Shown in pieces: positions 4,702 through 12,418 of a DNA stretch of 50,201 nucleotides. The stretch spans positions 1-50,201 of the forward strand of contig CAMACY010000007.1 in the NCBI GenBank assembly GCA_945831585.1, in the 5' to 3' direction. Under the pieces are notes generated by a model, which was given only the letters and a program-made list of their open reading frames with translations, searched no databases and was not told the origin of the DNA. Both the position numbers and the translations under genes were made by a program. The stretch comes from an uncultured bacterium (GTDB taxonomy: Bacteria; Verrucomicrobiota; Verrucomicrobiia; Verrucomicrobiales; Akkermansiaceae). Each line of letters opens with the position of its first letter. Positions within the stretch are counted from its first letter, which is position 1.

Positions 4702-6872
4702 TTGTCTGTTTTTTCGGGGTCACGATAAAGCACAACGGCTTCCCATTGCTTGGTGCTGCGGCTCCAGCGCGCCTTCACAAAAAACTCGCGGCCGGCCTGC
4801 CACTGCTCGCTGATATCCGTGGGCTGCACATCGATGATGCCCGCCGGGCTCGGCAGTGGGCCGCCGTTCATAATCATGCGGCCATCATCTTCCATATACA
4901 CCGCGAAAGGCTCCAGCCGCGCTGCCTTGGAATCTACCCTGTGGCCGGCGCTCGCGCTACCGCCCACCATGGGGTAGTTATCGGATTCTTCCTCACCGTC
5001 ATCCCCATCACTGCCGGAACCGCCGGGACCTTCTGTGTCCTTAACGGGCGGCAAGGTCTGACGTGCAAAATCGCTTTGCATATCTGCCAACGCCTGCATT
5101 TTGCCCACTTGCTGCCGTTGCAGGATGGCATCCACACCCACCGGGCCTCCGGCGCCTGTGGTCAGTGTCAGCTCGCCCGTGAACGGGTTCCAGCGCGCAC
5201 TCTTAAGGACTCCGAATTGATCGCCGTGGCGGTAGGCGCTTACTTCGGCTAGGCGGATGCTTCCGTGTGACCCGCCCGATCGGCTGTTGTAGTAATCAGT
5301 CAAGGCTTGGATGTAGTCGCGCTGCGAGAGTTCCGCCGTCTCCGAAGACGAGCTGCCCGAGCCGGTGGTACCGCCGGTATCGCCCGGATTCGCATCTGCG
5401 GTCGCCGCCGGCTGACCATTGGTGCCGCTCTGGTAGCGCGTGCGGCGGCGGTTGATAAAGACACCGTCCAGCGTCAACTGCGTGTAGCTCACCATGTCCT
5501 CCGCGCCATCCTCACCAGCTACTTTCATCGTTCCGGCAAAGAATGCCATCACCTCCTTGCCGCTCAGCACGCCCGTGTAGGCTTTTTTCAGCCACACATA
5601 CTGCCGCAGCGTGCCCCGGCAAAACTTCAGGCCGCTCACATTACCGCGCGAATCTGAGCTTGCGGGGAATTGCCCCTCATAGCACACATACAGCTTCTGA
5701 TTGCCGCCGGCGGTAAACTCTTCGTAGTTCGCCGGGCCATTTCGGCTCTCCAGCAGCGGCGGCTTCAACAGCTTCACTCCTGCCAGCGTGCTCGTTTCGT
5801 CATCCTCATCTGCCTCCGGGTAGGCATCTGCCACCGGCATCGGCTCAAACACCGCCGCGCCGAAAGCCAAACAACTCACATTCGTCTTGCGTATCTCCGG
5901 CAGGTAACGGCCCCAAAACTCATGGCATGCTGTTCCATTACTCACCGCCGTGCGCATATCCACCGCTTCACCATCATTCACCGTTTGCCATCCGGCCGGC
6001 ACCTCGTATCCTTTCACAATGTGCCATTCGCCGCAGGCCGCCTGCACAGCGGCGGTCTGCTGCTGATCAAGCTCGCTCTTTGTTGCGCTGTTGCGCACGG
6101 CGACAGAGACCTCTTCCACGGGCACGTGGTACACAAAGGCTCCCGGCTGGAAGATGCTCTGGCCTTCCGGCAAGGTGAACTCATAGCGCCCGCGCAGAGC
6201 CACCACCGGGGGCACCTCCCATGCGGTGGTGCTGCTGCTCGAGCTCACCACTGATCCCGGCAGGTGCTGCGCCTTCAATCTCTCCAGCGTTGGCAGTTGC
6301 AGCCCGGCGGCTTTGCTGACTGCGCCTCCCGTGCCACCCATCAAATGCAGGGTGCCTGTGCGGTGGTCATACCAGGAAGCGGCATTGGGCACCCAGCGCG
6401 CGGCGGCCAAGATGTTGCTCCACACACTTTCCGTGCCGCTGCTGAATACCGCCATGACCGAGGCCGAAATACCCACCTCCACGCTCTCCTCCGCCAGCAT
6501 CTCGCAGGAGCTCATGGAGCTCAGCGCTTGCTGCACCATGTCCGCTGCACTTTCCAGCCGCTGCTCGGAGGAGTAGCTGCTCTGTTTCACCGGCAGTACA
6601 TCCAGAACCGCCACCACATTCTGCACTTCGACGCGTGTCACCCAAACGCAGGTGTCCTGCGCACTCTCGATGCTCGTCACCCAGCCTCGGAACACACAGT
6701 CGCCATCCTGCATCACCCGCAGCGCCGCTCCAGCCGCAAAGGGCAGCGGCACCTGCGCCGTCAGTGTGCCTGAAAATTCCATGCTCAGCACATCGGCCGC
6801 CATGCTCTTGTAGTCTATGCTGAGCTGTCTGCAGCCCAGAGCCGTCAATTCTTCGAAGGTCAATTCCATCAT
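4698..6872 (-). CDS. phage tail hub / baseplate-like protein (about 724 aa)
   Basis: The frame extends to a TTG at 6881, but the ATG at 6872 (MMELTFEEL), beside the tape-measure stop at 6875, is the likelier start. The first ~120 residues (a beta-strand-rich segment with DGDCVFRGWVTSIESAQ) resemble the start of hub proteins of the gpD/gp44 type, where a small domain reports a local displacement, but similarity is weak. A Ser/Gly-rich linker near residues 490-510 (TGGTTGSGSSSSETAE) and an acidic linker near 620-635 separate three blocks. The order tape measure, hub, tip is normal for long-tailed phages. The specific role is inferred from position. Confidence 0.5.
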   Translation of the reverse strand: MMELTFEELTALGCRQLSIDYKSMAADVLSMEFSGTLTAQVPLPFAAGAALRVMQDGDCVFRGWVTSIESAQDTCVWVTRVEVQNVVAVLDVLPVKQSSYSSEQRLESAADMVQQALSSMSSCEMLAEESVEVGISASVMAVFSSGTESVWSNILAAARWVPNAASWYDHRTGTLHLMGGTGGAVSKAAGLQLPTLERLKAQHLPGSVVSSSSSTTAWEVPPVVALRGRYEFTLPEGQSIFQPGAFVYHVPVEEVSVAVRNSATKSELDQQQTAAVQAACGEWHIVKGYEVPAGWQTVNDGEAVDMRTAVSNGTACHEFWGRYLPEIRKTNVSCLAFGAAVFEPMPVADAYPEADEDDETSTLAGVKLLKPPLLESRNGPANYEEFTAGGNQKLYVCYEGQFPASSDSRGNVSGLKFCRGTLRQYVWLKKAYTGVLSGKEVMAFFAGTMKVAGEDGAEDMVSYTQLTLDGVFINRRRTRYQSGTNGQPAATADANPGDTGGTTGSGSSSSETAELSQRDYIQALTDYYNSRSGGSHGSIRLAEVSAYRHGDQFGVLKSARWNPFTGELTLTTGAGGPVGVDAILQRQQVGKMQALADMQSDFARQTLPPVKDTEGPGGSGSDGDDGEEESDNYPMVGGSASAGHRVDSKAARLEPFAVYMEDDGRMIMNGGPLPSPAGIIDVQPTDISEQWQAGREFFVKARWSRSTKQWEAVVLYRDPEKTDK

Positions 6873-6874
6873 TA

Positions 6875-8866
6875 TCAGCAAATGTTTGTGCGGTTCATGT
6901 TGGCAATCTGCTGCTGCAAGCTCAATTGCCCCTGCCGCAGTGCTTCAATCTTGGCAGCATGCACCGCCGCCGCGCCTGCCAGCTCCGTGGAGGTGGTGCT
7001 AAAGGCACCCATTGCCGCTACCGCCGCCTCACTCACCGCGCCTTGCTCCTGCATCGCCTCGGTTCCGGCGCCCAGTGCGCCGTCCAGCCCCTCCAGAGGT
7101 GCGGCACCACTTGCCGAGCTGCTGCGCCTCGCGGCGGCGGCTGCCTCCTCGGCCTGCTGCCGCGCGCGGCGCGCGGCTTCCTCTTGATCAAACACGCTCT
7201 GCCGCCGCTGCTCCTCGGCTGCCGCCGCTTCCGTCTTGTCCATGGCATCCAGCCGCCCCGCGTAATCATCCACAAAGCCCTGCTGCTGCGCAATGCGCTC
7301 CAGCAGTTGCAGAATCCCCAGCACGGCCTGATTATCCAGCCCGCTGTTGCCCAGTAGCCGCAGGTCGTTGCCATAGCGGCGGCTCTGATCATCGGACACG
7401 CTGAGTTGCGCGCTGCTGCTCATCATGGCCTCGATCTGCGCCAACACCTCCGGCTCGCGCGCCGAGCGCTCCAGCAAAGACTCCAGCGCCGCCACCGCCG
7501 GCTGCTGATCAGCGCTCGCTCGCTCGCGGAGCAGTTGCAGCTGCTCTGCCAGCAGTCGGCGCAGCTCTTGCAGCCCGGATTCCTCACCGGCCTTTTCCGC
7601 CTGCACACCGGCGCGCTCTTCCTCTCGCGTCAGCGCCGCCCGCGCCTCCGCTGCCGCTGCCTCGGCCTCTCCCGCCGCCGCTTCGGCGCGGTGCGCCAGC
7701 GTGGCATCCTCTTGGGCGCGGCGCTGCAACACGCCTTGATCCTCTTCTGCCTGCGTGCGCTCCAACTCCGCTACGCGCGCCTGTGCTTCTGCCAGCCGCT
7801 GCCGCGCGTCCTCCTCCTCCAGGCTCTGCGTTTCGGCATCCTTACCCAGTCGGGCGCGCTTTTCCTCCCATGCTACCAGCATCTTGGCCACCACTTCGTC
7901 CAGGTTGATGTCGACCATCTTGCCGTCCACTTCTTTTTGGGTCGTGATACCCAAATACTGCGCGGCGGGCAATATCTCATCGCGCAGTGAAGCGCGCCGC
8001 TGCACCGCACGCGCGTAATCTCGCTCGGCCATGGCGTTTTCATAGGCATTATTCAGCAGAGAAGTGTCCGGACCGTTCATCACCTGCTCATTTGCATCTG
8101 CCCACTGTTGCGCCAACTGCTCCCAGTAGTCGCGGCGCTCCTCGCCCCCTTGCCCCAAAATGCCCGCGCGCGTGGCCGCTTGCAGGCTGTCGCTCAGGTT
8201 TTGCATGGCCGTGCGGCTTTCCGCCGCCTGCGCATCGTACTGAGCCTGCGCCTCATCGCGTGCCGCGGTGGCCTCGCGCATCCGCTGCCCCTGCGACTCC
8301 TCGCGCGCGGCATCTTCCATGCGGCGCACGCCCTCCAAATGCTCCCGGGATGTAATCTCGCCGCGTGCCCTCTGCCCGTCCAGTATCGCCCGCTGCACCC
8401 CGCGCCGGTTGCCCTCGCGCTCCGCTTGCATCTGCGCCATATCGGCCTCAAAGGCGTGGCGCGCGCGCTGCTTCTCCAGCAAGCGCTCATTGAGCGCTAT
8501 CTGCTTTTCCAAGCTTTCATGCGGGGCTCGCATTCGCGCCGCAGCTTCTGCTTCCTGCCGCGCCAGCTTCCATTGGTTGGCCACTTTCTGCCCGGCCTTG
8601 ATAGTTTCTTCTTGCAGCTTCTGCCACCATTCCATCACCAGCCGCACCGATGCCACCACCTGATTGAACAGGCCAACAATCGCAAAGCCTTTGGTCAGGA
8701 TGTCCATCGCCCCCTTGGCCATGCCTAGCGCGGTGGTCAGCCCATCGGTAGCACTTGCCGCGCCCTGCATGGCGCCCCTGATCTCCGCCTCCGCGCGCTT
8801 TGCCTGCCCGGGCAGAGCACTCGTGTCCAGCGCTATTCTGATTTTGACATCCGGATCTTTACTCAT
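6875..8866 (-). CDS. tail tape-measure protein
   Basis: 663 residues, dominated from about residue 95 onward by charged Ala/Glu/Gln/Arg-rich coiled coil (for example ELERTQAEEDQGVLQRRA). A short N-terminal segment carries a hydrophobic stretch (GFAIVGLFNQVVASVRLVM, about residues 60-78) as in many tape measures. It lies between small tail genes and the hub protein, the standard place. If helical throughout, a chain of this length would span very roughly 100 nm, a moderate tail. There is no peptidase or lytic domain motif. The next gene's start overlaps this stop closely, suggesting coupling. Confidence 0.8.
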   Translation of the reverse strand: MSKDPDVKIRIALDTSALPGQAKRAEAEIRGAMQGAASATDGLTTALGMAKGAMDILTKGFAIVGLFNQVVASVRLVMEWWQKLQEETIKAGQKVANQWKLARQEAEAAARMRAPHESLEKQIALNERLLEKQRARHAFEADMAQMQAEREGNRRGVQRAILDGQRARGEITSREHLEGVRRMEDAAREESQGQRMREATAARDEAQAQYDAQAAESRTAMQNLSDSLQAATRAGILGQGGEERRDYWEQLAQQWADANEQVMNGPDTSLLNNAYENAMAERDYARAVQRRASLRDEILPAAQYLGITTQKEVDGKMVDINLDEVVAKMLVAWEEKRARLGKDAETQSLEEEDARQRLAEAQARVAELERTQAEEDQGVLQRRAQEDATLAHRAEAAAGEAEAAAAEARAALTREEERAGVQAEKAGEESGLQELRRLLAEQLQLLRERASADQQPAVAALESLLERSAREPEVLAQIEAMMSSSAQLSVSDDQSRRYGNDLRLLGNSGLDNQAVLGILQLLERIAQQQGFVDDYAGRLDAMDKTEAAAAEEQRRQSVFDQEEAARRARQQAEEAAAAARRSSSASGAAPLEGLDGALGAGTEAMQEQGAVSEAAVAAMGAFSTTSTELAGAAAVHAAKIEALRQGQLSLQQQIANMNRTNIC

Positions 8867-9330
8867 ACATCAATAGGCTCAGAAACATTAAAATCAAACG
8901 ACACGTGGTAGCCCACATGGCTTTCAAAGGGCGTGCTTTCGCGGTTCAGGTCTTCTGCCTGCACCGTGTTGAGCGTGGCGTGCATTTGCCATCTTACCAG
9001 AGGGGCGCTGCGCTGCCCCATAAAGGCCGTTTCATAGAGCAGCGTGCCCTCCGGGTGCCCATACAGCCAGCGCCACAGCTCATGACGCGCCGCCACCGCA
9101 CGCTCCAAACAGGCGGCCTCTGAGTAGCGGTCAAACAGCAGGCGCATACTCACATTACCCCGGCTGTGGTGAGCTGCCCAGCGCGACCGCAGCAGCGCAT
9201 CTTTCTGCACCTCGGCCGAGCCCTCAAAGCGCGGCTCGGCATCCTCCAAATCCAGCGGAGCCAACAACTCCACTGCCTCGCCGCCCTCCGGGGTGTATGT
9301 GATCCTGTGTCTGCTTAAAAATACTCTCAT
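8863..9330 (-). CDS. conserved-looking phage tail protein of unknown function (155 aa)
   Basis: The ATG at 9330 overlaps the stop of the small frame upstream, and its own stop overlaps the tape-measure ATG (8863-8866), so it is embedded in the tail operon. The sequence is a mixed alpha/beta globular protein (LEDAEPRFEGSAEVQKDAL, then ELWRWLYGHPEGTLLYETAF), with no signal peptide or membrane segment. In siphophage gene order this slot can hold a tail assembly or distal-tail component, but I do not recognise the family. Confidence 0.5.
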   Translation of the reverse strand: MRVFLSRHRITYTPEGGEAVELLAPLDLEDAEPRFEGSAEVQKDALLRSRWAAHHSRGNVSMRLLFDRYSEAACLERAVAARHELWRWLYGHPEGTLLYETAFMGQRSAPLVRWQMHATLNTVQAEDLNRESTPFESHVGYHVSFDFNVSEPIDV

Positions 9331-9425
9331 ATCCCGAGTTTGTGTTGGTAAAAGCTCAATTCATGCAAGAGCCGGCACAATGCGCGGGCGTCAAATATCT
9401 TGCCCACCTGGCCAGGCTGCCAGCC
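9327..9425 (-). other. second small frame downstream of the 48-aa ORF, possibly reached by frameshift
   Basis: This frame is open from just after a TAG to a TGA at 9327-9329, 32 codons, without an ATG. Its Leu-rich, amphipathic end (LCRLLHELSFYQHKLGI) looks like real coding sequence and leads straight into the ATG of the next gene. A further stretch in the same frame just upstream (HKGGRTVLHNGAL, then TAG) also looks protein-like. Either it belongs to a frameshifted chaperone or the locus has been damaged. Confidence 0.3.
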
Positions 9426-9537
9426 CTAAAGAGCACCATTGTGCAGCACGGTGCGGCCGCCTTTGTGCGCCGCCCATGCTCAGGTGTCCGAAAGTGCTCG
9501 CCATCAGTTCTTCAATGACGTCCTTTGCTATATTCAT
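9391..9537 (-). CDS. 48-aa ORF in the tail assembly chaperone position
   Basis: The ATG overlaps the glycosyltransferase stop (ATGA at 9534-9537), a strong sign of coupling. It reads MNIAKDVIEELMASTF onward and stops at 9391. A different frame (+1 relative to this one) covers 9425-9327 and looks protein-like (KIFDARALCRLLHELSFYQ), ending in overlap with the next gene's ATG. Long-tailed phages commonly express two tail assembly chaperones by frameshifting just upstream of the tape measure. The position fits, but here the two frames overlap only about 35 nt and no classic slippery heptamer was found. Confidence 0.4.
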   Translation of the reverse strand: MNIAKDVIEELMASTFGHLSMGGAQRRPHRAAQWCSLGLAAWPGGQDI

Positions 9538-10319
9538 AAGTCTGTTTCTCCTTCCTGCTCTTTTGCCGCCTGCTCCGCGTCAAACTCCGCCAACACCCGG
9601 CGCATGGTTTCTGCTGTCGCCGCGCGCTGCTCGGCATCTGTTTCTCCGGGGGCAATCTTATGGCCAAAATGCACCGCGCAGGAGTTGCGCCACAAATTAT
9701 AGCCCTCCTCCCAGCGGTACCAACCCACGCGACGCAACAGCCCGCTCTCCGCTTGTTGCGCCGATTGGTAACGGTGCTGCACGACGTGCCCGCCCGCGAT
9801 GCCGCAGAGGACGGTAAGCACCCGGTCGCTGTACCCGGAGCCGCTGCGCACGCGGGCGGCGATGCCCTCGTCGTCCATCAGTCGGCGCATAGGCTCCAGC
9901 ATCGTTCGGCGTATCAACATGCCACCGCCTGCGCAGTACTGCACGGCGCGCTGCATCGCCTTGTCGTCGTCCCAGCCGATTGCCTGCCCGTACATGTCGG
10001 CCTGCGCGTCGCCGAGCAGGCCAGCGCCGTCAAGCAAGAGCATGTCGCTGTCCAGCTGCATCACCCACTCATCCGTGCCGTGTGCCATGTAGGTGTCCAA
10101 CATCCCGCGCACGGCTTCCACTCCGTTCAGGTTGCCTCCGCGCGCCCACGCCGTGCGCACGTACTCCGCCGCGCCGAGGGCGAGGGCGTCTGCCTCACCC
10201 GAGCAGGCGGGGGCGTCTGCTTGGTCTACCAACACCACGCGGCCGTGACGCGCCGCCGCTGCCACGCTGTGCGGCAACATGCAGGCGTCTTTATCGTAGC
10301 CAAAAATAAAGATGTCCAT
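9534..10319 (-). CDS. phage-encoded GT-A type glycosyltransferase-like protein
   Basis: 261 residues. The N-terminus (MDIFIFGYDKDACML) looks like the first strand of a nucleotide-sugar-binding fold. The core shows GVEAVRGMLDTYMAHGTDEW followed by VMQLDSDMLLLDG, where DSD is a DxD-type metal/nucleotide-sugar motif. Later come an acceptor-loop-like CAGGGMLIRR and YSDRVLTVLCGIAGGH, with a His near the end (CAVHFGHK). The gene lies directly downstream of the collagen/YadA-like fibre (11 bp gap) and before the tape measure, inside the tail operon. The likely job is modifying a virion protein, with the adjacent Ser/Thr-rich fibre as the obvious candidate. Fold assignment is fairly good; donor and acceptor are unknown. 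Confidence 0.65.
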   Translation of the reverse strand: MDIFIFGYDKDACMLPHSVAAAARHGRVVLVDQADAPACSGEADALALGAAEYVRTAWARGGNLNGVEAVRGMLDTYMAHGTDEWVMQLDSDMLLLDGAGLLGDAQADMYGQAIGWDDDKAMQRAVQYCAGGGMLIRRTMLEPMRRLMDDEGIAARVRSGSGYSDRVLTVLCGIAGGHVVQHRYQSAQQAESGLLRRVGWYRWEEGYNLWRNSCAVHFGHKIAPGETDAEQRAATAETMRRVLAEFDAEQAAKEQEGETDL

Positions 10320-10330
10320 ATCAGTAATAA

Positions 10331-11761
10331 TTAATAGTCTTGAATGCCGCTGTAACCCTTCGGCTCGAAATCGCTCGTATGCTCCGTGCAGATGCTCGCA
10401 AGCGGAATGACCCCGCGCGAGACAATGCTGCCCGCCATGTGGTCGTAGACAATGTACCCAAGCCCTGCCTCGCCGCCGAGGTAGGTGGTAGCTAAGCCGC
10501 TCCCTTTGGCGATAAGGTACAGCTGCGTGCTGTAGCCTGAGCCGCCGTTGCCGCTCGCGCCTCCCGCATTGATTGCGACAACCCCGGCATCATTGACGTA
10601 CGCACCCGCGCCTACTGCGACAGAGCTCACGCCCTTGCTGCCGACATTGGCCATGGCACCAATCGCCGTGGAATAGTACCCGCTCGCCGTGGAGACGTGC
10701 CCGCTCGCCGTGGAGTATGTCCCGCTCGCCGTGGAGTAGTTCCCGCTCGCCGTGGAGTAGTCCCCGCTCGCCGTGGAGTAGAACCCGCTCACCGTGGAGT
10801 TGTTCCCGCTCGCCCTTGCGTAGTGTCCTATGGCAGTTGATCCACCAGCGGTGGCTTGTGCTGATGTCCCGCTGGCAGTTGAGCCGCCCCCGCTCGCTGT
10901 GGATGAGAGCCCGCTGGCAGTTGAGTTGGTACCGCTCGCCGTGGAATAGCCCCCGATCGCCGTGGAGTTGTACCCGCTCGACGTGGAGCTGCCCCCGCTC
11001 GCCGTGGAACTGTACCCGCTCGCCGTGGCAAAATTGCCGTACGCCGTGCTCCGATGCCCACTCGCCTGCGCATGCAAGCCCACGGCAACACTGTTGCTGC
11101 TGTAGGTGGTGTTTGTATTGTTAGTTTCGCTTTCGGCGCCCGTGTTCTTCCGGGTTGCCGTCGCGTCCTTGCTCTGGCTCGTGTAGGTCGCGCCCACGAC
11201 AGCCCCGAGACCCACCGCCAGCGAGTCCGCACAATACGCCACCGCCCCGGGACCTGCGGCCAAGCTGTCCAGCCCCACACTGCTGGCCAGTCCCCCCGGG
11301 TCGCCTTTTTCGCCCTTGTCACCCTTCGGACCCTGCTCACCCTGCGGGCCCTGCTCACCTTTTGGCCCTTGCGGCCCCTGCGGGCCCTGCTCACCCTGCG
11401 GTCCGGGCATACCCTCCAGCATAGTGATATTCACCTGCAGCACCTCTGCCGTGTTGTCCACATCCACGCGGTAAGTGGCCAGCCCCTCCTCACCGAAAAG
11501 CGGGCTCGGCAGCACCTCCACATGGCCATACAGCACACACACACCAGCCGCTCGCACCTCAGTCAGGTACACCCCGGCAGGCAGCGAAGGTATCGTCAGC
11601 ATATCAGCCTGCGTATTCTCCATATCCACACGCTGACCCTGTACCATCAGGGCACCGCGCAAGGCAGGCGTATCAGCCCCCTCCGGCAGCGTAAAATCAA
11701 ACAACAGCCTGCCGCTCTGCCCGGCGGTCAGGGTAAAAGGTGGTATCGCTTTCTTCTTCAT
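10331..11761 (-). CDS. collagen-like / YadA-head-like tail fibre
   Basis: 476 residues from the ATG at 11761 (MKKKAIPPF). Residues ~1-115 form a beta-rich N-terminal domain, perhaps for virion attachment. Then come 12 perfect collagen triplets ([18 protein letters not shown] types), a linker, and about 18-20 heptad repeats of the YadA head type, STASGxx with variants STAIGGY and ARASGNN. A ~95-residue C-terminal domain follows, containing [20 protein letters not shown] and no hydrophobic anchor. Both repeat types trimerise in known proteins, so a trimeric fibre is likely. Being next to a glycosyltransferase and Ser/Thr-rich, it may be glycosylated. Its position between tail tube and tape measure is unusual, since fibres normally come after the hub. 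Confidence 0.8.
10665..11055. repeat. tandem 21-bp repeats inside the fibre gene
   Basis: The plus strand repeatedly shows CCGCTCGCCGTGGA with a variable six to seven bases between, a 21-bp period encoding the STASGxx heptads on the minus strand. Several neighbouring units (10683-10800) are nearly identical at DNA level. Such arrays gain or lose units by slippage or recombination without shifting the frame, so fibre length may vary among relatives. Confidence 0.75.
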
Positions 11762-11821: not shown

Positions 11822-12418
11822 TTAAATCGTGATATCCAGCCCGGTGTTGCTCAGCCCGTCCTTGGGCACGTCCGTTACATCCAGCCGCCAGTTGTAGGTG
11901 TCCAACTGGTTGCTGTGCTCGGGGATGTCGGCCAGACTGAGGTCGCCACGCAGGGTCAGCTCCAGTTGCTCGCCATCCTCACCGTGGGTGCGCAGCGAGT
12001 CGTACTGCCGGGCGTAGAGCCAGCCGCGCACTTGCCCGGAGGCGCTGGAAAAGGGCGCGGCGCTCTCACCCACAGCGGGCAGTGCCGCCATGCCCCACTC
12101 GGCTGCCGCCGCTTCCGGCACGCGATCCATGGAGCTAAATGTCACGGCGCATTGATCCATGATGCGCAGCTTTCGGGTGTTGTAGCGCTGGTTTTCTGTG
12201 CTTACGCCCAGCTTAGTGAGCTCGGTGTAGGTAATATCCGGCTTCCACTTCGACACTTCCCCCAGGTATTTACCGGCAGTCATGGCCTCTTCAAAAGTCG
12301 GTTTGTTGGTGCGGCTGCTCAGCTTGCTTTCGCCGTAGCTCGTGCCGTCCGGCACAAACCACACGGCCAGCCCCTGCACGGATTCTGCGCGCGTGCGGCT
12401 CTCCATTACGATAGGCAT
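11822..12418 (-). CDS. major tail tube protein
   Basis: 198 residues with a beta-rich composition and no coiled coil, signal or membrane segment. The sequence has a typical tube-protein feel (AESVQGLAVWFVPDG, then a central KLGVSTENQRYNTRK and an Asn/Asp-rich end). It comes after the head-completion and tail-terminator genes and upstream of the tape measure. Only one such gene is present and there is no sheath-sized partner, pointing to a non-contractile tail. Family-level similarity is inferred; position is the main evidence. Confidence 0.6.
   Translation of the reverse strand: MPIVMESRTRAESVQGLAVWFVPDGTSYGESKLSSRTNKPTFEEAMTAGKYLGEVSKWKPDITYTELTKLGVSTENQRYNTRKLRIMDQCAVTFSSMDRVPEAAAAEWGMAALPAVGESAAPFSSASGQVRGWLYARQYDSLRTHGEDGEQLELTLRGDLSLADIPEHSNQLDTYNWRLDVTDVPKDGLSNTGLDITI

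Follow-up and report, generated by a model that had tools for sequence, protein, structure and literature searches.

Tail-linked GT-A-like glycosyltransferases in Akkermansia phages and the predicted glycosylation of a phage's own tail protein

Here, we analyzed a stretch of DNA of 50,201 bp (hereafter the window, which is an entire contig of a 1.9-Mb genome) that contains a prophage with Akkermansia as host genus. The phage is Mu-like based on matches to Portal_Mu, a Mu-like protease, the MuB C-terminus, and a terminase. In its tail operon, which lies on the minus strand, a fibre gene (10331..11761, an ORF of 476 aa) is followed by a gene (9534..10319, an ORF of 261 aa) for a member of an unannotated family that AlphaFold (AF2) and Foldseek place among the GT-A glycosyltransferases (GTs). 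By sequence, the fibre stop codon and the GT start codon are separated by 11 bp (10320..10330, minus strand), and the gene pair proposed in a first-pass annotation is present as two ORFs on the same strand. We found no promoter-like site in this gap with a promoter/terminator scan that performed at chance level. Upstream of the fibre gene lies a tail gene for a 198-aa protein (11822..12418, minus strand), which is conserved in related Akkermansia Mu-like phages (50% identity in L045 and 48% in L046). Downstream of the GT gene, three-frame translation of the 203 bp on the minus strand up to the next tail gene (9331..9533) revealed neither a through-running open frame nor a trace of additional glycosyltransferases. 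This stretch is followed by a tail-module gene for a 155-aa protein (8863..9330, minus strand) and, as the next gene in the operon, by a gene for a helical 663-aa protein (6875..8866, minus strand), which by position, length, and composition is probably the tape measure protein and has weak homology with the product of the gene in the same position in L054/L055. Scans of viral contigs with the window GT, the tape measure protein, and the 198-aa tail protein as queries returned no relatives.

The fibre protein, which matches tail-fibre PHROGs, consists of a conserved N-terminal anchor (residues 1-115) with homologues in eight congeners, a collagen GXY region (residues about 116-157; PF01391, 29.4 bits, above the cut-off), a Ser/Thr-rich stretch (residues 158-230), YadA_head beta-roll repeats (residues 231-405; PF05658, 95.6 bits, E 1.7e-27), and a C-terminal domain (residues 406-476) that is common to other Akkermansia phage fibres, including those of the loci L110 and L049 described below. 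The repeats resemble those of the trimeric autotransporter adhesin YadA; however, YadA has a C-terminal membrane anchor (YadA_anchor), which is absent from the Pfam matches of the window fibre, and the phage protein has an N-terminal phage anchor instead. The fibre had initially been described as Ser/Thr-rich. This description holds in that Ser and Thr make up 35% of the YadA part; however, because much of this richness is the YadA_head repeat itself (STASGxYSTASG...), it is weak evidence on its own.

The window GT had zero matches in Pfam, PHROG, NCBIfam, and PDB at the sequence level, and other family members had only stray sub-threshold matches to profile libraries. From the LDSD motif alone (residues 89-92, with D90/D92 as the DxD motif), the first-pass annotation had guessed a GT-A-like enzyme, and the predicted fold confirms this guess. 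Specifically, the AF2 model (pLDDT 82.5, pTM 0.85) gave 236 Foldseek matches in PDB at E <= 0.001, of which the top ones are all glycosyltransferases, with LgtC as the best match (1ss9; E 8.3e-8, prob 1.00) and the UGGT catalytic domain, GlyE (5gvw), and the capsid glycosyltransferase of PBCV-1 (2p6w/2p73; E 3.3e-6) among the further matches. A fold search of BFVD matched many phage GTs. At the level of sequence, the best PDB match of the family profile is a weak one to core-1 galactosyltransferase (E 0.027). Based on the model, the window GT is a GT-A fold glycosyltransferase. It shares the GT-A fold with a DxD motif with the GT8/LgtC-type, GlyE, UGGT, and PBCV-1 enzymes, but with query TM-scores of only ~0.47-0.56, 9-17% identity, and no Pfam GT match, and by these comparisons it belongs to a separate family, which is unnamed in the libraries searched. 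We aligned the window GT with 14 relatives that are only 18-26% identical to it. This alignment, which is too divergent for a pattern search, has 10 invariant columns, i.e., D32, P37, R60, L64, G66, G72, D90, D92, G132, and D165. Residue 164, commonly E in the family, is S in the window GT, and the enzyme of L110 is an exception to the conservation of the DxD motif, with DSN replacing DSD.

The family profile matched in 26 of 76 Akkermansia genomes with up to seven copies each. To describe gene placement, we extracted the neighbourhoods of 58 copies, which group into 31 clusters at 70% identity, using heuristic gene calls with over-long starts trimmed and assigning copies to prophage or host loci by their neighbours. 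Of the 39 copies assigned to prophages, 35 have their start -4 to +23 bp behind a gene on the same strand, nearly always in the tail module, compared with only 6 of the 19 copies in host loci. Placement at this distance right behind a tail-module gene recurs in ~20 distinct clusters. Thus, the co-occurrence of fibre and GT across phages, which the first-pass annotation had suggested as a check, is borne out in Akkermansia and recurs in other Verrucomicrobia (see below). The 35 copies include the second one in L113, which itself lies behind a GT family gene; this locus (6511-8114), possibly a prophage tail region, holds two divergent family members in tandem.

The upstream neighbours of the GT genes are diverse. 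They are collagen fibres in the window, L110, L109, and L112; a tail-collar fibre in L019 (PHROG E 4.9e-21), a phage that has a baseplate J gene; tail proteins of the "HVTxxER" type, whose PHROG tail matches are weak, in L021 and L108; and large proteins beside the tape measure in L017, L020, and L024. Because many upstream genes lack a library match, their tail role rests on position, as seen from the annotated tape measure gene in Chambord (see below), a weak TMP_3 match in L025, and a terminase in L104. Many of these neighbours are tail genes by position and putative rather than proven fibres. On a tree, the GT clades track the type of the neighbouring tail gene, with 13 changes for 10 groups compared with 36.5 in shuffles, a contrast that near-copies inflate. 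Such clade-specific pairing of enzyme and tail is what a dedicated acceptor would predict. A gene after the GT in L020 that by eye resembled a sialyltransferase was dropped as a candidate since Pfam gave no match. In L029 and L030, an N6/N4 DNA methylase-like gene lies downstream of a family member in a phage tail region.

Family members are not confined to tail modules but are also present in host loci. The host-locus copies adjoin SufE/aspS, RHS-like giant genes, or a sulfatase. Giant RHS-like (YD-repeat) genes adjoin the family members in L114, L116, L117, L124, L088, and L089; in L022, L026, L086, L087, and L090, the family member lies behind SufE and near an aspartyl-tRNA-synthetase-like gene, and in L022 it is followed by a true GT11 gene (PF01531, 60 bits).

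The GT gene is accessory, and some relatives have the fibre without it. In the fibre-anchor loci of eight congeners, a GT gene is next to the fibre gene in none, although several contigs stop too early to judge; we therefore rejected the idea that the fibre anchor co-occurs with the GT. In L051 and L052, a distant homologue (26-28% identity) of the product of 8863-9330 is encoded directly 3' of the fibre gene with gaps of 70 and 23 bp, respectively, so that the window GT gene looks like an insert between the two. Similarly, a collagen/YadA-head fibre in L049 (8368-9999) has the anchor and the C-terminal domain of the window fibre but no adjoining GT. This locus rules out that the GT strictly follows the YadA head and argues that a fibre of this type does not need glycosylation.

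The family is also encoded by phages that form virions. While tblastn with the window GT against phages returned no match, the L110 GT matched four Akkermansia phage records. The phages Chambord, Chantilly, and Moulinsart each encode a family GT labelled as a "hypothetical" protein, and in Chambord, a large tail gene precedes the GT gene and the next gene is annotated in GenBank as encoding a tail length tape measure protein. The virome of OMM12 mice contained 13 induced prophages, of which these three are the ones from A. muciniphila (PMC10197239); each of the three A. muciniphila YL44 prophages seen as virions in mice thus carries a family GT. A phage-encoded GT in the genomes of virion-forming phages is, accordingly, established for the YL44 phages; the window phage is not known to form virions. 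The trait had been regarded as unusual for a transposable phage; it is not peculiar to such phages since other kinds of Akkermansia phage also have the GT. Outside Akkermansia, our sample of other Verrucomicrobiales genomes included four with the family, and the GT gene there again adjoins phage or tail-like genes. Specifically, a collagen protein is encoded 4 bp upstream of the GT in L153, a large tail-like gene adjoins it in L154, and a fibre-like gene in L155; in L156 (2390-3774), a tail-fibre-like gene and an FkbM methyltransferase gene precede the GT gene, and a second fibre-like gene flanks them.

Altogether, the GT-A fold, the conserved DxD motif, the coupling to tail genes, the repeated occurrence in prophage tail modules that are unrelated to each other, and the finding of the gene in phages that form virions lead us to predict that the phage GT probably glycosylates the phage's own tail protein. 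We favor a tail protein as the target because of the gene placement, the coupling, and the clade pairing; catalysis, the fibre as the acceptor, the site, the sugar, and the benefit are what we infer from these observations. According to this model, the GT would be a cytoplasmic GT-A enzyme expressed from the late (tail) operon and translated directly after the fibre. Using a nucleotide sugar of the host as donor and a divalent metal as cofactor, it would add a sugar to a tail protein, which in the window would be the collagen/YadA-head fibre, probably at Ser/Thr residues of the head or of the stretch 158-230, before or during tail assembly. The resulting glycan coat may alter adhesion to mucus or the host surface, or may hide the tail.

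The main alternative, which we consider unlikely, is that the GT modifies LPS or capsule as a glycan on the surface of the lysogen or the infected cell, causing superinfection exclusion or lysogenic conversion, and that its site in the tail operon is a chance insertion. Phage GTs that alter the O-antigen are common, copies of the family occur in host loci, and the presence of host GT6 and GT11 genes ~2 kb apart (see below) means that a blood-group-like host glycan may exist as an acceptor. However, the GT gene is repeatedly located -4 to +23 bp behind a tail-module gene in ~20 distinct clusters and, unlike a moron, has neither a promoter of its own nor a strong terminator in the window, as judged by the chance-level scan. 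Moreover, serotype-converting GTs of the gtr type come with a flippase and a lipid-carrier GT (gtrA/gtrB) or their own promoter, whereas the neighbours of the window GT are tail genes, and by inspection we noticed no flippase or other serotype-conversion partner beside the copies.

It is far less likely that the GT-A domain is non-enzymatic and contributes to the tail as a structural element or chaperone, or acts in the virion by binding sugars. The constant position among structural genes would fit such a role, as would the S at residue 164 and the DSN of the L110 enzyme; on the other hand, D90, D92, and D165 are invariant across the 15 aligned sequences at 18-26% identity to the window GT, as one would expect of a catalytic enzyme, and the existence of related tail modules without the GT argues that it is not an essential tail part. 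Marginally less probable still is that the GT glycosylates another phage target, i.e., the capsid, the tail tube, or modified DNA. The structural match to the PBCV-1 capsid glycosyltransferase and the link, cited in PMC11256854, between capsid glycans and phage GTs in mycobacteriophages are in line with a capsid target; yet, the copies adjoin tail fibre, hub, or tape measure genes rather than capsid genes, and for DNA the sole hint is the DNA methylase-like gene in L029 and L030.

Returning to tail protein glycosylation, an unexpected lead for glycan mimicry comes from L110, a locus on a 3,911-bp contig (G077:C22) of a sheep caecum Akkermansia. Here, closely spaced genes encode a collagen/YadA-head fibre that shares its C-terminal domain with the window fibre, an ortholog of the window GT (49% identical), a GT11-like protein, a GT6, and a RecU-like protein; the GT11-like and GT6 genes (68-1996) lie behind those for the fibre and GT and are followed by the RecU-like gene. 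The last GT is a true GT6 (PF03414, 40.2 bits with a cut-off of 25; BoGT6a, 4ayj, E 7e-35) and has the NAN motif in common with BoGT6a and the human ABO transferases; the difference from these enzymes is its location behind a fibre/GT pair in this Akkermansia genome, an arrangement that the window does not have. The GT11-like protein scored below the cut-off for PF01531 (16.8 vs 23.9 bits) but has the motifs GGLGNQLWQL, HLRGGDF, and SSSSMSWW and matches a confident GT11 with E 1e-9; its AF2 model (pLDDT 33.5) is too low in confidence for use. GT11 followed by GT6 is the order of synthesis of the H antigen and then the A/B antigens. Head genes from two phages are also present in the G077 genome, and most of them are 66-92% identical to their counterparts in the window phage. 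Judged by these genes in the same genome rather than by physical linkage, L110 is probably part of a phage of this kind. In the window's own genome, we found neither GT6 nor GT11. Host genes for GT6 and GT11 lie ~2 kb apart in Akkermansia (e.g., at 1473304 and 1475602 of G017:C1, and in other genomes), and Akkermansia itself may make blood-group-like glycans. By its gene content, the L110 cassette would support glycan mimicry. We tentatively speculate, while regarding it as rather doubtful in its full form, that verrucomicrobial phages have dedicated tail glycosylation by a private GT-A family that is matched to each tail type, and that some use a fucosyl/ABO cassette to build a blood-group-like fibre glycan that mimics the mucin on which their host feeds.

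The pair had also been likened to Ser-rich adhesins with dedicated glycosyltransferases. A Ser/Thr-rich surface fibre gene adjoining its own GT gene is indeed common to both; however, the analogy is wrong in detail, because the Gtf partners of Ser-rich-repeat adhesins are GT-B enzymes (O-GlcNAc transferases), whereas the window fibre is collagen/YadA-like and its partner a GT-A enzyme. To our knowledge, very few systems with glycosylated phage virions have been described. Among mycobacteriophages, virion glycosylation was reported for Che8 and Rita (Freeman et al. 2023, cited in PMC11256854), with the major capsid protein as the reported target, and the GTs of Maravista are encoded near the 3' genome end. 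As in our model, the proposed role of these phage GTs is to modify virion proteins of the phage that encodes them; in contrast, we find a single GT directly behind tail genes in phages of another phylum. A search of the open-licence literature turned up no report of the GT family, of its association with tail genes in phages of Verrucomicrobia, or of the GT6-bearing cassette. Our findings point to a large GT family, unnamed in the libraries searched, whose members are linked to tail genes in phages of Akkermansia, a major mucin degrader of the gut. Three GT-carrying phages form particles in gnotobiotic mice, so that material for testing tail glycosylation already exists. Host-like sugars on the tails, if present, would bear on how these phages persist in mucus, on their immune recognition, and on how they find Akkermansia.
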